47,875 bases of DNA from Acidimicrobiales bacterium. Lineage in GTDB: Bacteria > Actinomycetota > Acidimicrobiia > Acidimicrobiales > CADCSY01. Under the pieces are notes generated by a model that was given only the letters and a program-made list of their open reading frames with translations, searched no databases and was not told the DNA's origin. Shown here piece after piece: positions 5,377 through 35,197 of the stretch. Location: assembly GCA_035512495.1 (NCBI GenBank), contig DATKDW010000013.1, positions 1 through 47,875 of the forward strand. Reading direction: 5' to 3'. The first letter of the stretch is position 1; every line of letters starts with the position of its first letter. A program made the position numbers and the translations under genes.

Positions 5377-5670
5377 CTACTTGGTGACGATGGCGAGGAC
5401 GTCGCGGCTGGTGAGGATCAGGAGGTCCTCACCGTCGACGGTGATCTCGGTGCCGCCGTACTTGGAGTAGACGACGGTGTCGCCGACGCTGACGCCGAGG
5501 GGGATGATCTCGCCCGTCTGCTCCGAGTGGCGGCCGGGGCCGGCAGCGAGGACCTCGCCCTGCTGCGGCTTCTCCTTGGCGGTGTCGGGGATGACCAGGC
5601 CGGAGGCGGTGGTGGCCTCCGACTCGTTGGCACGCACGACGATGCGGTCCTCGAGGGGCTGGAGCTTCAT
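5377..5670 (-). CDS. groES: Co-chaperonin GroES
   Basis: A 97-residue lid protein for GroEL. The start is the ATG at 5670, giving the canonical [13 protein letters not shown]-terminus, with GGAGG nine bases upstream. The mobile loop is visible as [20 protein letters not shown], and the conserved GEVLAAGPG and [13 protein letters not shown] follow. The gene lies 59 bases downstream of a perfect CIRCE element and directly before groEL, so heat-shock control by an HrcA repressor, encoded elsewhere, is expected. Confidence 0.98.
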
Positions 5671-8101: not shown

Positions 8102-8592
8102 CCGCCTCCACCTCCCGGCACCCAGGGGACGAGCGACTCGGTCAGCGCCCGGGTGCGGGCGGTCCACCGGGAACCGACCGTCACGAGCTCGAGGGTGCGG
8201 TCGTCGTCGCCGTCGCCGTAGGCGATGCGGACCTCGAGGTAGTCGGCCGGCAGCGCGGGGATGACCACGTCCCCCCACTCGATCAAGGTGACGCCGCCGT
8301 CGTCGACGATCTCGGGCAGGCCGAGGTCGACTGCCTCCTGGAGGTGGTCGAGTCGGTAGACGTCGAGGTGGTGCAGGCGCAGCCGCCCCTCGTAGCTGCG
8401 GGCCAGGGTGAAGGTGGGGCTGGTGACCTGCTCGTCGACACCGAGGGCCCGGGCGAAGCCCTGGGCGAAGGCGGTCTTGCCCGCGCCGAGGTCGCCGGTG
8501 AGGAGGATCACGTCGGCGGCGTGCACCAGGCCGGCGACGGCGGCGGCGAGGTCGCGGGTGGCCTCGACGCTGCTCGTGGCGGCGGCGATCAC
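8095..8592 (-). CDS. tsaE: tRNA t6A biosynthesis ATPase TsaE
   Basis: P-loop ATPase that resets the TsaBD complex. The Walker A motif GDLGAGKT is at residues 33-40, followed by SPTFTLARSY, HHLDVYRL and the LIEWGD motif typical of the family. At 165 residues it is slightly longer than usual, with an added C-terminal tail ending in PGGGGGC. The GTG at 8592 makes a GTGA overlap with the uracil-DNA glycosylase gene; another GTG three bases upstream is possible. It is the first t6A gene of the cluster and overlaps tsaB by seven bases. Confidence 0.93.
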   Translation of the reverse strand: MIAAATSSVEATRDLAAAVAGLVHAADVILLTGDLGAGKTAFAQGFARALGVDEQVTSPTFTLARSYEGRLRLHHLDVYRLDHLQEAVDLGLPEIVDDGGVTLIEWGDVVIPALPADYLEVRIAYGDGDDDRTLELVTVGSRWTARTRALTESLVPWVPGGGGGC

Positions 8593-19492: not shown

Positions 19493-20695
19493 GTGATCAC
19501 CTTCGAGGACCTTCGCGACGCCCACCAGCGGGTGCGGTCGGTGATCCGGCCGACACCCGTGGTGCGCGCCCACTCGCTGTCCAGGGTGGCCGGGCGCGAG
19601 CTCCTGCTCAAGCCCGAGCACCTGCAGCGAACCGGGTCCTACAAGGTGCGCGGCGCTCACAACCTGGTGTCGCGCCTCGACCCGGCCACCGTGCCCGGGG
19701 TGGTCGCTGCGTCCGCCGGCAACCACGGCCAGGGCGTGGCGCTCGCCGCGTCCGTGAGCGGGATCCCGGCCACGATCTTCATGCCCACCGGGGCCGCCCT
19801 GCCGAAGGTCGACGCCGTCCGCGGCTACGGCGCCGAGGTGCGATTCGCCGGGCACACCGTCGACGACGCCCTCGAGGCGGCGCTCGCCCACGCCTCCGAG
19901 ACCGGCGCCACCCTCGTGCCCCCCTTCGACCACCCCCTGGTGATCGCCGGCCAGGGCACCGTCGGCATGGAGGTCGCCGAAGAAGCCCCCAACGCCGAGG
20001 TGGTGGTGGTCCCCGTCGGCGGGGGCGGGCTGATCTCGGGGATGGCGGTCGCCCTCGCCCACCTCCGACCGGGGGTGCGGGTGATCGGCGTGGAGGCCGT
20101 CGGCGCGGCGTCGATGCGCGCCTCGCTCGACGCCGGCCGCTGCGTCACCCTGCCCGCGGTGCGCACCATGGCCGACGGCATCGCCCTCCGTTGCCCGAGC
20201 CCGCTGACGTTTGCCCACGTGCGTGCCTACGTCGACGACGTGGTCACGGTCACCGAGGAGCAGATCAGCCAGGCGCTGGTCCTGCTGCTCGAGCGGGCCA
20301 AGGCCGTGGTGGAGCCGGCCGGCGCCGTCTCCCTCGCCGCCGTCCTCGCCGGGCTCGTTCCCGGCACCGGTCCGGTCGTGGCCGTCCTCTCGGGTGGCAA
20401 CGTCGACCCGCTGCTCCTCGTGAAGCTCATCGACCACGGGCTCTCGTCGGCCGGGCGCTACCTCATGTTGCGCATCGTCCTCGGCGACCGCCCGGGCTCC
20501 CTCGCCGCCCTCACACAGCGGGTGGCCGACCTCGAGCTCAACGTGCTCTCGGTGGAGCACCACCGCACCGGGGCAGACCTCGGTGTCGACGAGGTGGAGG
20601 TCCTCCTGACCCTCGAGACCCGTGGGCCGGTCCACCGCGACGACGTGGTGGCCGCCCTCGTCGCCGACGGCCTCCGGGTCGACGTGGTCGGCTGA
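19493..20695 (+). CDS. ilvA: Threonine ammonia-lyase (dehydratase) with C-terminal ACT domain
   Basis: PLP enzyme that deaminates threonine to 2-oxobutanoate, feeding isoleucine synthesis or threonine breakdown. The 400-residue protein has the PLP lysine at Lys51 in GSYKVRGAHN, the SAGNHGQGVA motif and the phosphate-binding VGGGGLISG. From about residue 325 a single ACT domain follows (YLMLRIVLGDRPGSLAALT), so allosteric control by an amino acid is likely. This short form with one ACT domain is shared by catabolic and biosynthetic enzymes, so the symbol is a convenience. It starts with GTG, runs divergently from rplM, and its stop codon lies in a tandem repeat. Confidence 0.9.
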   Translation: MITFEDLRDAHQRVRSVIRPTPVVRAHSLSRVAGRELLLKPEHLQRTGSYKVRGAHNLVSRLDPATVPGVVAASAGNHGQGVALAASVSGIPATIFMPTGAALPKVDAVRGYGAEVRFAGHTVDDALEAALAHASETGATLVPPFDHPLVIAGQGTVGMEVAEEAPNAEVVVVPVGGGGLISGMAVALAHLRPGVRVIGVEAVGAASMRASLDAGRCVTLPAVRTMADGIALRCPSPLTFAHVRAYVDDVVTVTEEQISQALVLLLERAKAVVEPAGAVSLAAVLAGLVPGTGPVVAVLSGGNVDPLLLVKLIDHGLSSAGRYLMLRIVLGDRPGSLAALTQRVADLELNVLSVEHHRTGADLGVDEVEVLLTLETRGPVHRDDVVAALVADGLRVDVVG

Positions 20696-20729
20696 GCGAG
20701 GCGAGGCGGAGCGAGGCGAGGCGGAGCGG
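20694..20729. repeat. 15-base tandem repeat at the ilvA stop
   Basis: The unit GAGCGAGGCGAGGCG occurs twice and then starts a third time. It begins inside the stop codon of the dehydratase gene. It has no hairpin symmetry and is purine-rich on the plus strand; a role in termination is not evident. Confidence 0.8.
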
Positions 20730-20809
20730 CATCCTCAACCGCTACTGACCCCCTCGCGGTCGCGCCGCTCCCTCGCCCACACCGGCCTCGACGGGAATCT
20801 GTTCGCCCC

Positions 20810-20827
20810 GTTCCACGTTGCACCGAA
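20810..20827 (+). repeat. 18-base repeat, copy 1
   Basis: GTTCCACGTTGCACCGAA, here flanked as CCGTTC...GAACGG (20808-20830), so this copy is itself an interrupted palindrome with 6-base arms. It lies between the dehydratase gene and the SnoaL-like gene, 52 bases before copy 2. Confidence 0.9.
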
Positions 20828-20861
20828 CGGCCTGAGCGAGACAGGGCAGTGGATCCGCCAT

Positions 20862-20879
20862 GTTCCACGTTGCACCGAA
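20862..20879 (+). repeat. 18-base repeat, copy 2
   Basis: Identical 18-base core to copy 1 in the same orientation. It shares the following AGG with copy 3 rather than the palindromic flank of copy 1. It is 41 bases before the -35 box of the SnoaL-like gene. Confidence 0.9.
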
Positions 20880-20919
20880 AGGGCTCGACCGGGCACCACG
20901 CCAGACGGCAGGTTCCCCC

Positions 20920-20948
20920 TTGTGCGACGATGACGAGCGGCGCACAAT
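20920..20948 (+). promoter_or_regulatory. Promoter of the SnoaL-like gene, within an inverted repeat
   Basis: TTGTGC (20920-20925), 17 bases, then CACAAT (20943-20948) resemble a vegetative promoter. The same bases form an inverted repeat, TTGTGCG (20920-20926) and CGCACAA (20941-20947), with a 14-base spacer, which could be a regulator site covering both boxes. The predicted start falls at the beginning of the 20952-20977 palindrome. Confidence 0.55.
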
Positions 20949-20951
20949 CCC

Positions 20952-20977
20952 CTGACGGGCCCGCGCGGGCCCGTCAG
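20952..20977 (+). promoter_or_regulatory. 26-base perfect palindrome in the leader of the SnoaL-like gene
   Basis: CTGACGGGCCCGC (20952-20964) is followed directly by its exact reverse complement (20965-20977). Flanking C and G tracts extend the stem with one bulge. The ribosome binding site AGGGGGG (20978-20984) begins at the 3' foot of the stem, six bases before the GTG. It may be a leader hairpin, an attenuator or an operator. Confidence 0.75.
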
Positions 20978-20990
20978 AGGGGGGTTTCAC

Positions 20991-21341
20991 GTGTCCAACA
21001 TCGACACCGTCCAAGCCGGCTTCAAGGAGATCGCCGACCGCGGCATGGGAGCCATGCTCGACATGCCGCACACCGACGACTTCGCTGTCCACGTGCCGAC
21101 GCTCGCCATCGATGCGCAGGGCGAGGACGAGGTCCGCACCAAGTTCATCGACCTCGTCGAACAGGTCCACATGCGCTCCGAGCTGATCGACGCGCTCGCC
21201 GAGGGACCCTTCGTGACCTGCACGCTCCGGGTGGAGTCCGACCTTCGACCCGAGCCCACCACGGCCGTCCAGGTGATCCGCTTCGACGAGGAGGGCCGGG
21301 CGGCCGAGCTCTGGGCCATCAGCCCCCCGCTCCCCGCCTGA
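20991..21341 (+). CDS. SnoaL-like / NTF2-fold protein
   Basis: A 116-residue cytoplasmic protein with the layout of small SnoaL-like (NTF2-fold) proteins: an N-terminal helix (TVQAGFKEIADRG), a HVP strand after a charged loop, a second helix (VRTKFIDLVEQVHM), and the family ending VIRFDEEGRAAELWAI. No catalytic residues can be assigned, so it may be an enzyme, a polyketide-cyclase-like protein or a binding protein. The GTG start has AGGGGGG six bases upstream. It stands alone on the plus strand, with two copies of an 18-base repeat before it and one inverted copy after it, which suggests an accessory unit. Confidence 0.75.
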   Translation: MSNIDTVQAGFKEIADRGMGAMLDMPHTDDFAVHVPTLAIDAQGEDEVRTKFIDLVEQVHMRSELIDALAEGPFVTCTLRVESDLRPEPTTAVQVIRFDEEGRAAELWAISPPLPA

Positions 21342-21393
21342 GGCCGCCCAGGACCCGTCGGCGACAACAGCGCGGTCCGCTCCGGCACCACCT

Positions 21394-21411
21394 TTCGGTG
21401 CAACGTGGAAC
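21394..21411 (-). repeat. 18-base repeat, copy 3 (inverted)
   Basis: TTCGGTGCAACGTGGAAC is the exact reverse complement of copies 1 and 2. It lies 52 bases after the SnoaL-like stop, so the gene is bracketed by the repeat in opposite orientations. It shares 21 bases with each of the other two copies, extended on different sides. Confidence 0.9.
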
Positions 21412-21480
21412 GGGATGGACCCAACGCCTGATCAGCGCATCGCGGTGGACGCCACGGCTACGACCCGGGACGCCCGCGGG

Positions 21481-22257
21481 TCAGGTCACGGGAGGCCCCT
21501 GGGCGTCGCCCTGCAACCGGCGGGCGCCCCAGGCGGTCGCCGCCACCGCCACGACGAGGGCGGCGAGGTCGTAGACGACGGCCGCGGCCCGGGTCCCCAC
21601 GCCGCCGCCGGCGGCGATGAAGAGCTCCTCGCCGACGAGGTTGGCCACCAGCCGCAGTGCCACGAGGAAGGCGAAGGCGGCGGCGATCACCGTGGCCACC
21701 GTGATCACCATCCTCGGGAGGCCATCGTCGGTGGGGTCACGCCCGGGGTCGCCGGGCGTGCACGCGAGGTGGATGGCCAGCGGCACCAGCAGCAGCAGCG
21801 GAACGGACAGGCCCCTCGTGCCGAGCTGGACACGCTCGAAGAAGCCGAACTCGAAGGGGAACCCGCCCCCGCGGACCCCGAGGACGCCACCGGCGTTGCT
21901 GGCCATGGCGAGGAGCACCGCCACCAGGGCGAGGCCCCCGGCGACCACGAGGGCGGCCGAGACCAGGTGAGCCGGCGGCGTCGCCGCCAGCCTCGAGAAG
22001 CCGCGTGGCGATGAGGCTCCTCCAGTCGGCGCGGCCGGCGCGCCCGGCGGGGGCCAGGCCCCGTGCCCGGCGACGGCGGATCCCCCGGCCGGGGAGGGAG
22101 GCCAGCCGGCGTCGGGAGGCCGACCAACACCTGGAGGCGGGCCAGCTGGGGGAGGCGACCCGGCGCCGGGAGGCGAGCCGGCGCCGGGAGGCGGGACCTG
22201 CCCGTAGCCCGGGTACTCGGACGGGTCACCCGGTGACGCGGGAGGCTGGTCGCTCAT
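21481..22257 (-). CDS. Proline-rich membrane protein of unknown function
   Basis: 258 residues starting at the ATG at 22257 (MSDQPPASPGDPSEYPGY). Residues 1-95 are a disordered Pro/Gly tail with repeats such as PPPGAG-SPPGAG-SPPPAG. Four hydrophobic helices follow at about 98-119, 140-156, 173-195 and 212-233. I recognise no enzyme family. Pro-rich cytosolic tails of this kind are common on small actinobacterial membrane proteins. It follows truA by 44 bases and may be read from the same transcript. Its stop is convergent with the SnoaL-like unit; a weak stem, GACCCG (21462-21467) with CGGGTC (21477-21482), lies at the end. Confidence 0.78.
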   Translation of the reverse strand: MSDQPPASPGDPSEYPGYGQVPPPGAGSPPGAGSPPPAGPPPGVGRPPDAGWPPSPAGGSAVAGHGAWPPPGAPAAPTGGASSPRGFSRLAATPPAHLVSAALVVAGGLALVAVLLAMASNAGGVLGVRGGGFPFEFGFFERVQLGTRGLSVPLLLLVPLAIHLACTPGDPGRDPTDDGLPRMVITVATVIAAAFAFLVALRLVANLVGEELFIAAGGGVGTRAAAVVYDLAALVVAVAATAWGARRLQGDAQGPPVT

Positions 22258-22301
22258 GACGAACAGCCTCGCACGCCGCTCCCGCCAGGGGAACGAACGC
22301 C

Positions 22302-23126
22302 TCAGATCGCCGGCCCGTCCGGGTAGGAGACGTGCCAGAGGCACAGGCCGTGCGGCGGCGCCAGCTCGCCGGCCCGACTGCGGTCCCGAGCATCGAGGAT
22401 GCCGCGCACGTCGCCCGCCCGCTTCCGACCGAAACCGACCTCCACGAGGGTGCCGACCACGGCGCGGACCATCTGCTGGCAGAACGACGAGGCCGAGATC
22501 TCGAAGCGGAGGACCCCCTCGCCGAGGTCCAGCCAGCGGGCGTCGGTGACCCGGCGCACCAGCGACGGCGGCTCGACCTCGGCCCCTACCCTCGGACGCC
22601 GGCAGAACGAAGCGAAGTCGTGCTCACCGATGAGGGGATCGCAACCGAGCCGCATCGAGGCGAGGTCGAGCGGGGCGGCGACGTGCCAGGCGGTGCCGAC
22701 CAGGAAGGGATCGGGCACCGGTCGGTTCACGACGGTGTACCGGTAGTGGCGCGCCGTGGCCGAGTGGCGGGCGTCGAAGCCGGCTGGAGCCACGTCCGCT
22801 TCGCGCACCACGATCCGGGGGGCGCACAGCTTGTTCACGGACCGCTGGAGGGCGACGAGGTCGAGGCCCTCGGCGGAGGCGTCGAAGGTGACGACCTGGC
22901 CCCACCCGTGGACACCGGCATCGGTGCGACCGGCGCAGGTGATGGTGACGGGGTGGCGCAGCACCCGCTCGATGGCCGCCACCAGCGTGCCGCCGACGGT
23001 GGTGACCCCGGGGTTGACGGCAAAGCCGGAGAAGCCCCGCCCGTCGTAGGCCACCAGCAGCCGGACGCGGACCGACGGGCCCGTGGGGCCCGTCGGTGCG
23101 GTTCCTTCGTCCTCGAAGAGGGTCAA
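22302..23126 (-). CDS. truA: tRNA pseudouridine(38-40) synthase TruA
   Basis: Makes pseudouridine in the tRNA anticodon arm. The 274-residue protein has VRLLVAYDGRGFSGF, the catalytic Asp69 in AGRTDAGVHG, RHYRYTVVNRP and the C-terminal SFCQQMVRAVVGTLVEVG. The start is uncertain: the only non-CTG start in frame before the first conserved strand is the TTG at 23126, giving an extra 20-residue N-terminus that is partly encoded by a 12-base-pair hairpin (23071-23097). It follows rplQ by 50 bases at the end of the alpha operon, the normal actinobacterial position. Confidence 0.93.
   Translation of the reverse strand: MTLFEDEGTAPTGPTGPSVRVRLLVAYDGRGFSGFAVNPGVTTVGGTLVAAIERVLRHPVTITCAGRTDAGVHGWGQVVTFDASAEGLDLVALQRSVNKLCAPRIVVREADVAPAGFDARHSATARHYRYTVVNRPVPDPFLVGTAWHVAAPLDLASMRLGCDPLIGEHDFASFCRRPRVGAEVEPPSLVRRVTDARWLDLGEGVLRFEISASSFCQQMVRAVVGTLVEVGFGRKRAGDVRGILDARDRSRAGELAPPHGLCLWHVSYPDGPAI
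23071..23097. repeat. 12-bp hairpin in the truA start region
   Basis: ACCGACGGGCCC (23071-23082), loop GTG, then the exact complement GGGCCCGTCGGT (23086-23097). It lies 80 bases after the rplQ stop and inside the first codons of truA. It could be a partial terminator of the alpha operon. Its stem shares GACGGGCCC/GGGCCCGTC with the palindrome at 20952-20977. Confidence 0.7.
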
Positions 23127-34454: not shown

Positions 34455-35197
34455 TACTTGTCCTCTTCCTTGCTGGCGTCCTCTTCCGTGCTGACGTCTT
34501 CCGTACTGGTGTCCTCGGCGTCCTCGACGTCGACGTCGGCGACGGCGACGTCGGCGACGTCGGCGTCGGTGGGCTCGGCGTCGGTGGGCTCGGCGTCCGT
34601 GGGCTCGGTGGTGGCGGCGTCATCGGCCTGGGCGACGGCGGGCGCCTGCTGGTCGACGATGCCCTCGGCGTCCTCGACGTCGGCGACGTCGGAGGCGGTG
34701 GGCTCCTCGGTGGCCTCACCACGGCTTCTTCCGGTCCGGCGACGGCGCTCCTCGGCGGCGTCCTGGCCGGCGCGACGAGCGGCACGGCTGCCGGGGCGGG
34801 AAGCGTCCCGGGTGCGCCGGCGCTCAAGCTCGTCTTCGGAGAGGCGGGCCACGATCACGGTGATGTGGCAGGAGCGCTTGCGGATGCGGGTGGCACGGCC
34901 GCGGGCCCGGGGACGGAAGCGGCGCATGGTCCGGCCCTCGTCGGCGAAGCAGGAGGCCACGAAGAGGTCGTCGCCGATCTGCTCGTCGTTGTGCTCGGCG
35001 TTGGCGATGGCCGAGGCCAGCACCTTGCGGACCGCGATGGCGGCGTCGCGCTCGGAGAACTGGAGGATCTCATCCGCGGTGCGGACGTCCTTGCCCCGGA
35101 TGAGGTCGAGGACGGCCCGGGCCTTGCTGGCCGACATGCGGACGTGGCGGGCCTGGGCGCGGGTGCCCGGGCGCTCGTTGGTCTTGGTGGCGGTCAT
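34454..35197 (-). CDS. rplV: Large-subunit ribosomal protein uL22 with long acidic C-terminal extension
   Basis: 247 residues, about twice the core length. The core (to ~130) has [30 protein letters not shown] and the hook region [22 protein letters not shown], which lines the exit tunnel. After an arginine-rich bridge comes an Asp/Glu/Ala/Thr tail with a 5-residue repeat, EPTDA three times (about 34565-34610 in the DNA), and the end [10 protein letters not shown]. The tail should project from the 50S near the tunnel exit. Its start ATG lies in a 20-base sequence duplicated at the end of rpsS. Confidence 0.97.

Follow-up and report, generated by a model that had tools for sequence, protein, structure and literature searches.

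Three exact copies of the 18-base core GTTCCACGTTGCACCGAA surround a single SnoaL-like gene in the draft genome of an uncultured actinobacterium, all of them in non-coding DNA, two before the gene and one inverted behind it (Table 1). The feature is confirmed and local, and it resembles a set of protein-binding sites peculiar to this locus more than it does a mobile element. We favour, tentatively and with somewhat less than even confidence, the reading that the copies are locus-specific binding sites of one DNA-binding protein controlling the SnoaL-like gene. Neutral local duplication competes closely with it and is nearly as likely. The window, i.e. the whole stretch of DNA that was analysed, is one complete contig (C13) of 47,875 bases from a 2.8-Mb draft of 97 contigs that is 96% complete.

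Table 1. Features of the repeat locus, with positions in the window.
Feature	Coordinates	Strand	Remarks
Stretch from ilvA stop to stop of convergent gene 21481-22344	20696..21480		785 bases
Repeat unit 1	20793..20830	+	core 20810-20827; 6-bp dyad CCGTTC-N11-GAACGG around core
Repeat unit 2	20845..20882	+	core 20862-20879
Weak candidate promoter TTGTGC-N17-CACAAT	20920..20948	+	7/12 consensus letters
Strong GC-rich palindrome	20949..20980	+	just 5' of start codon; single copy in genome
SnoaL-like gene	20991..21341	+	116 aa, GTG start; family assigned via homologues
Repeat unit 3, inverted	21391..21428	-	core 21394-21411, ~50 bp beyond the gene's stop codon

Repeat copies, gene and neighbourhood

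In 100 shuffles of the window the core was matched 0.02 times on average, and three matches were reached in none. The coordinates and strands of the three copies are correct in the initial annotation, as are the two differing 21-base extensions, of which CCCGTTCCACGTTGCACCGAA is common to copies 1 and 3 and GTTCCACGTTGCACCGAAAGG to copies 2 and 3; the interrupted palindrome that it described at copy 1 was also recovered. The core itself is without a full dyad, and the 6-bp arms occur in copy 1 only. Overlooked at that time was a likeness among the copies that continues for about 17 bases 5' of the core. Copies 2 and 3 align over 38 nt with 82% identity, copies 1 and 3 over 24 nt with 96%, and 3' of the core the alignment reads [A/C]GG.

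The 17-base 5' flanks share 28 matches over the three pairings, compared to 15.5 (intergenic pool) and 15.1 (window) in random triples; the corresponding P values of 0.0027 and 0.00135 are optimistic, the length having been picked after the alignment had suggested 17. For 5' flanks of 6, 9 and 30 bases P was about 0.03, 0.01 and 0.04-0.05, respectively, and on the far side of the core it was ~0.02 for 3 bases, 0.07-0.08 for 6 bases, 0.26-0.28 for 9 bases and 0.04-0.05 for 17 bases. From this similarity, which concerns one triple only with a length set post hoc, the copies look like eroded units of ~38 bp in which the core is unchanged.

The window protein is without a Pfam or NCBIfam match and its single-sequence fold is poor (pLDDT 52.6); the putative SnoaL-like assignment stands on homologues, not on the score of this protein itself. 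The homologue in genome G470 matches SnoaL_2 at 4.7e-11, that in genome G007 at 0.002, which is below the cut-off, and a profile of the three proteins matches the polyketide cyclase IdmH at 0.0072. The alignment with G007 is confined to the C-terminal half, and the G007 copy may be truncated; a PIN-domain remnant suspected by eye before it has no Pfam match. Over 64 aligned codons the two genes differ 9, 6 and 23 times at codon positions 1, 2 and 3, with 19 synonymous and 12 nonsynonymous codons, and because the differences are mainly at the third position the reading frame is coding and selected over the aligned part.

Few close homologues of the gene turned up in the searches performed. Searches with the single protein delivered one of 58 relatives (G007, residues 52-116, 78%) and one of 394 other genomes in a sample of the class (G328, weak, E 7.9e-4). 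A profile of the C-terminal part found two of 396 others in a sample of the order (G007 and G470), and the full three-protein profile 18 of 396, 16 of these weak. Exact 8-residue peptide patterns delivered no relative from species genomes or from the viral contigs of IMG/VR; the patterns are absent from the G007 and G470 proteins too and would miss such relatives.

Along the contig, rpsI and rplM (minus) precede ilvA (plus, stop at 20695), which is followed by the SnoaL-like gene (plus), an open reading frame at 21481-22344 (minus), truA, rplQ and rpoA. In 10 of 11 stretches from 10 genomes of the family (G011 supplying two) rplM, rpsI or glmM is found near truA, the remaining stretch (L048) ending too early past truA; since the relatives show the same neighbours, a misjoined contig is unlikely. 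Directly past the ilvA stop (20694-20728) lies a 15-bp tandem, GAGCGAGGCGAGGCG, which is part of a fold with a z of -1.95; no terminator was called there.

Only one relative, G007, has ilvA at this position and in this orientation, and there the SnoaL-like gene and the repeats are absent. In its stretch L041 ilvA ends at 5415, a convergent frame ends at 5435 and truA follows; the best core match has 5 mismatches, and the SnoaL-like homologue of this genome is located on a different contig. The convergent frame shows no similarity to the window gene at 21481-22344, and because the following genes are dissimilar the comparison establishes no matching empty site, only that gene and repeats are absent next to ilvA. 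Among the other family stretches ilvA lies between truA and rplM in G001 only, in opposite orientation; the 11 further genomes of the family that were searched all belong to genera other than that of the window. Gain or loss of the gene together with the repeats at ilvA thus appears possible from these comparisons.

Distribution of the core

The statement of the initial annotation that the window holds no further copy is valid at up to 3 mismatches and extends to the whole genome, where the three sites are the only matches (reversed control: 1 match). None of the 58 relatives contains the core at up to 1 mismatch. At 2 mismatches one match each occurs in G044 and G055 (2 of 58), which is the level of the reversed control with one match each in G033, G041, G043, G044 and G052 (5 of 58). 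No exact match was found in IMG/VR. Five single matches among 84,980 species genomes belong to records of Phycisphaerae, Desulfomonilaceae, Bradyrhizobium, Alistipes and Ruminococcus; these are unrelated bacteria and the number is about the chance level, estimated as about 7.5 for 257 billion bases when both strands are counted and equal base use is assumed, so the core is no dispersed repeat family. A search of the literature delivered nothing on these repeats.

Counting the core across the genome and its relatives, as proposed earlier, thus returns only this locus and argues against the extragenic, genome-wide repeat family that had been considered; a REP-like family is rejected for the same two reasons, the small number of copies and the absence from relatives. 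This negative result, no spread and no element, spares others from treating the repeats as a family, and the locus is a local curiosity rather than a general surprise.

A dispersed family of a different kind does occur in the genome. It consists of 49-bp inverted repeats, GTTCTCGGCACG-N25-CGTGCCGAGAAC, of fixed length with a variable middle, on contigs C17, C52, C54, C62, C65 and C91 (L103-L119). A search with the left arm yields 17 sites in the genome and none for the reversed control, and across nine aligned units the right arm is invariant in 10 of its 12 columns. Five loci scanned gave no Rfam match, and neither arm had a match in the literature. Kinship of the core with this hairpin family was rejected (P 0.40 to 0.74). 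Separately, the 13-base GGTGACGGGCCCC recurs in the sample of other stretches described below and in the window, with 17 matches against 3 in the reversed control (1 mismatch).

Proposed binding sites and competing explanations

Of the three readings given in the initial annotation, sites of a putative regulator fit best. The binder would most likely be a transcriptional regulator encoded elsewhere that recognizes the 18-base core; an identical core with a drifted remainder of the unit is expected if only the core is under constraint. For a unit of 24 bp instead, with 3 differences that are all outside the core, random substitution would leave an unchanged run of at least 18 with P = 0.05. Cores 1 and 2 start 52 bp apart, equal to 4.95 turns at 10.5 bp per turn, and the two upstream sites would be on one face of the helix and occupied together, while the inverted downstream site may join the pair through looping. 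The candidate promoter starts 40 bp past core 2 and is the only sequence with at least 7 of 12 promoter consensus letters starting within 20691-20985; a stricter scan accepted none, the candidate at 20920 included. A further layer of control, at translation, may come from the GC-rich palindrome of the leader, which could mask the ribosome site. An 86-nt stretch containing this palindrome folds with a z of -3.8, and none of 200 shuffles was equally stable.

Against operators it can be said that the core has no full dyad, that the candidate promoter is weak, that perfect identity over 18 bases in three of them is unusual, that a regulator with a single target is odd, and that the SnoaL-like homologues sit elsewhere without the sites. 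If the copies are operators, the core offers a ready bait for the regulator of an uncharacterised SnoaL-like gene from an uncultured actinobacterium.

Neutral local duplication would have copied a stretch of 24-38 bp twice at short range, once in inverted orientation, by template switching or slippage and with no function. We consider this somewhat unlikely in itself, yet close to binding sites in standing. A sample of 20 further stretches of the genome (297,680 bases) holds comparable local repeats at five places (exact, non-simple repeats of at least 18 bases lying no more than 1.5 kb apart, with spacings other than multiples of three), namely in L086, L090, L093, L097 and L098, counted irrespective of the coding context of each, and they occur in addition at 35194 and 35268 of the window, where the two copies of a 21-base exact direct repeat, TCATCGGCGACCACCTCGCTC, lie 74 bp apart. 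The repeat in L098 belongs to a dispersed family, while those in L086 and L093 are nearly local within the sample; L093 (11402 and 11538, i.e. C62:41401 and 41537) carries a 43-bp direct repeat with the hairpin-like GGTGACGGGCCCCGCCGTCACC. Local short repeats are therefore not rare here, and no regulator or enzyme is tied to the sites; a set of three exact copies around a single gene, in both orientations, is still unusual. Duplication does not account readily for the uneven erosion that left the core intact while the remainder differs, and it would have to have happened twice to give three copies in two orientations.

A mobile or recombining unit, as suggested initially, is weak at best and in our estimate rather improbable. 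The copies would be the ends of a small non-autonomous element, with the gene between inverted repeats and the enzyme encoded elsewhere. In favour of it, copies 1 and 3 form inverted repeats of 24 nt with 96% complementarity and copies 2 and 3 inverted repeats of 38 nt with 82%, G007 lacks both the gene and the repeats at its ilvA, and the gene has few close homologues. The GC content of the locus (0.67-0.71) is lower than that of ilvA (0.72-0.77) and of the gene after the SnoaL-like gene (0.73-0.81), though it is equally low in the nearby rpsI. The transposases of some elements bind several sites per end, and a doubled left end would resemble those.

Against mobility stand the single copy in the genome and the presence of three repeats instead of two. 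Neither end of the 785-base stretch coincides with the repeats, and the stretch missing in G007 is not demonstrably bounded by them; the dissimilar gene after ilvA in G007 lowers the case further, and the relatives are too distant to define ends. Flanks of 40 bases contain no direct repeat of at least 5 bases immediately next to the cores on their outer sides; the two direct repeats in these flanks both belong to copy 2 and lie 8 to 33 bases off at unequal distances. The DNA of 20696-21483 has no match in plasmid or phage collections and the window protein none in plasmids. Related repeats are likewise missing from the homologues: around G007, G470 and 16 weaker homologues (flanks up to 1.5 kb) the core is absent at up to 4 mismatches, one flank (L075) containing two matches with 5 mismatches. 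The longest exact repeats around these 18 homologues measure 10-17 bases, except for a 33-base tandem repeat in L067, compared to 18 (direct) and 21 (inverted) at the window locus.

The two nearest homologues are located within ~350 bp of DUF222-HNH genes (L025:6484-8620 in G007, L057:223-2022 in G470), which also speaks for mobility. In G007 SnoaL homology begins at 8414, past the end of the DUF222 frame at 8154; in G470 the SnoaL-like gene ends at 573 and the DUF222 frame of the opposite strand at 919. Such adjacency twice by chance is unlikely because there are only about 8 DUF222 loci in G007 and 6 in G470 (search rows merged by hand), though it was noticed afterwards and in two cases only. 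Neither of these homologues has the repeats, searches with two DUF222 proteins found no such neighbour within the flanks of the 16 weaker homologues, and the window contains no convincing DUF222 match (best E 0.29). A transposon-discovery study names REP13E12/HNH endonuclease/DUF222 among repetitive elements (PMC10589994). The G007 contig stretch carries a c-di-GMP-II-GAG riboswitch (L025:3064-3153). On contig C85 of the genome of the window (L097:890-1744) a perfect 20-bp palindrome, GAGTGCCCCGCGGGGCACTC, is present in three copies within and next to a DUF222 gene.

It is very unlikely that the copies act at the RNA level, where copy 1 or 2 in the leader would pair with copy 3 in the trailer and loop the mRNA, affecting its stability or translation. 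Copies 1 and 3 are complementary over 24 nt and copies 2 and 3 over 38 nt at 82%, but transcription would have to start before copy 1, and the sole promoter candidate comes after both copy 1 and copy 2. About as improbable is that ~20793-21428 forms a minimal cassette of one gene, with two sites at its left end and one inverted site at its right, that is moved in trans by a core-recognising enzyme, perhaps of the DUF222-HNH kind encoded beside the nearest homologues.

Further identities were rejected. No known RNA family was detected in the window. An ECF-type promoter on the minus strand of copy 1 (GGAAC-N16-CGTC) is the only minus-strand match, is not found in the other copies and would read antisense into ilvA. 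The core site of integron attC is GTTRRRY, and by eye the repeat reads GTTCCAC.

Comparison with known systems

parS is a palindrome bound by ParB and lies near the other parS sites of a genome. The core begins with GTTCCACGT like a parS half-site, and the starts of copies 1 and 2 are 52 bp apart, compared to 41-49 bp between the parS-like sites of this genome; its right half, however, does not match, and with 2 mismatches in 14 and no palindrome it was rejected as a parS site. The parS-like cluster of the genome is on another contig (C71:51833-51983) and comprises four sites, GTTTCACGTGGAAC and near matches, with starts 41-49 bp apart; it may mark the origin region.

MITEs and mobile gene units bounded by terminal inverted repeats are similar in having near-identical inverted ends around one gene. 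The locus differs from them by its single copy, an extra third repeat, the lack of a target-site duplication of at least 5 bases and the lack of a related element among those searched.

Operator clusters of the lac, gal and deo type, in which two sites are paired upstream and a third is remote, are the class to which the favoured binding sites compare. Those systems have dyad sites and a known repressor, whereas the core described here is asymmetric and its binder putative; as in those systems, several nearly identical sites surround a single transcription unit, with two in helical phase and one beyond or inside the gene.
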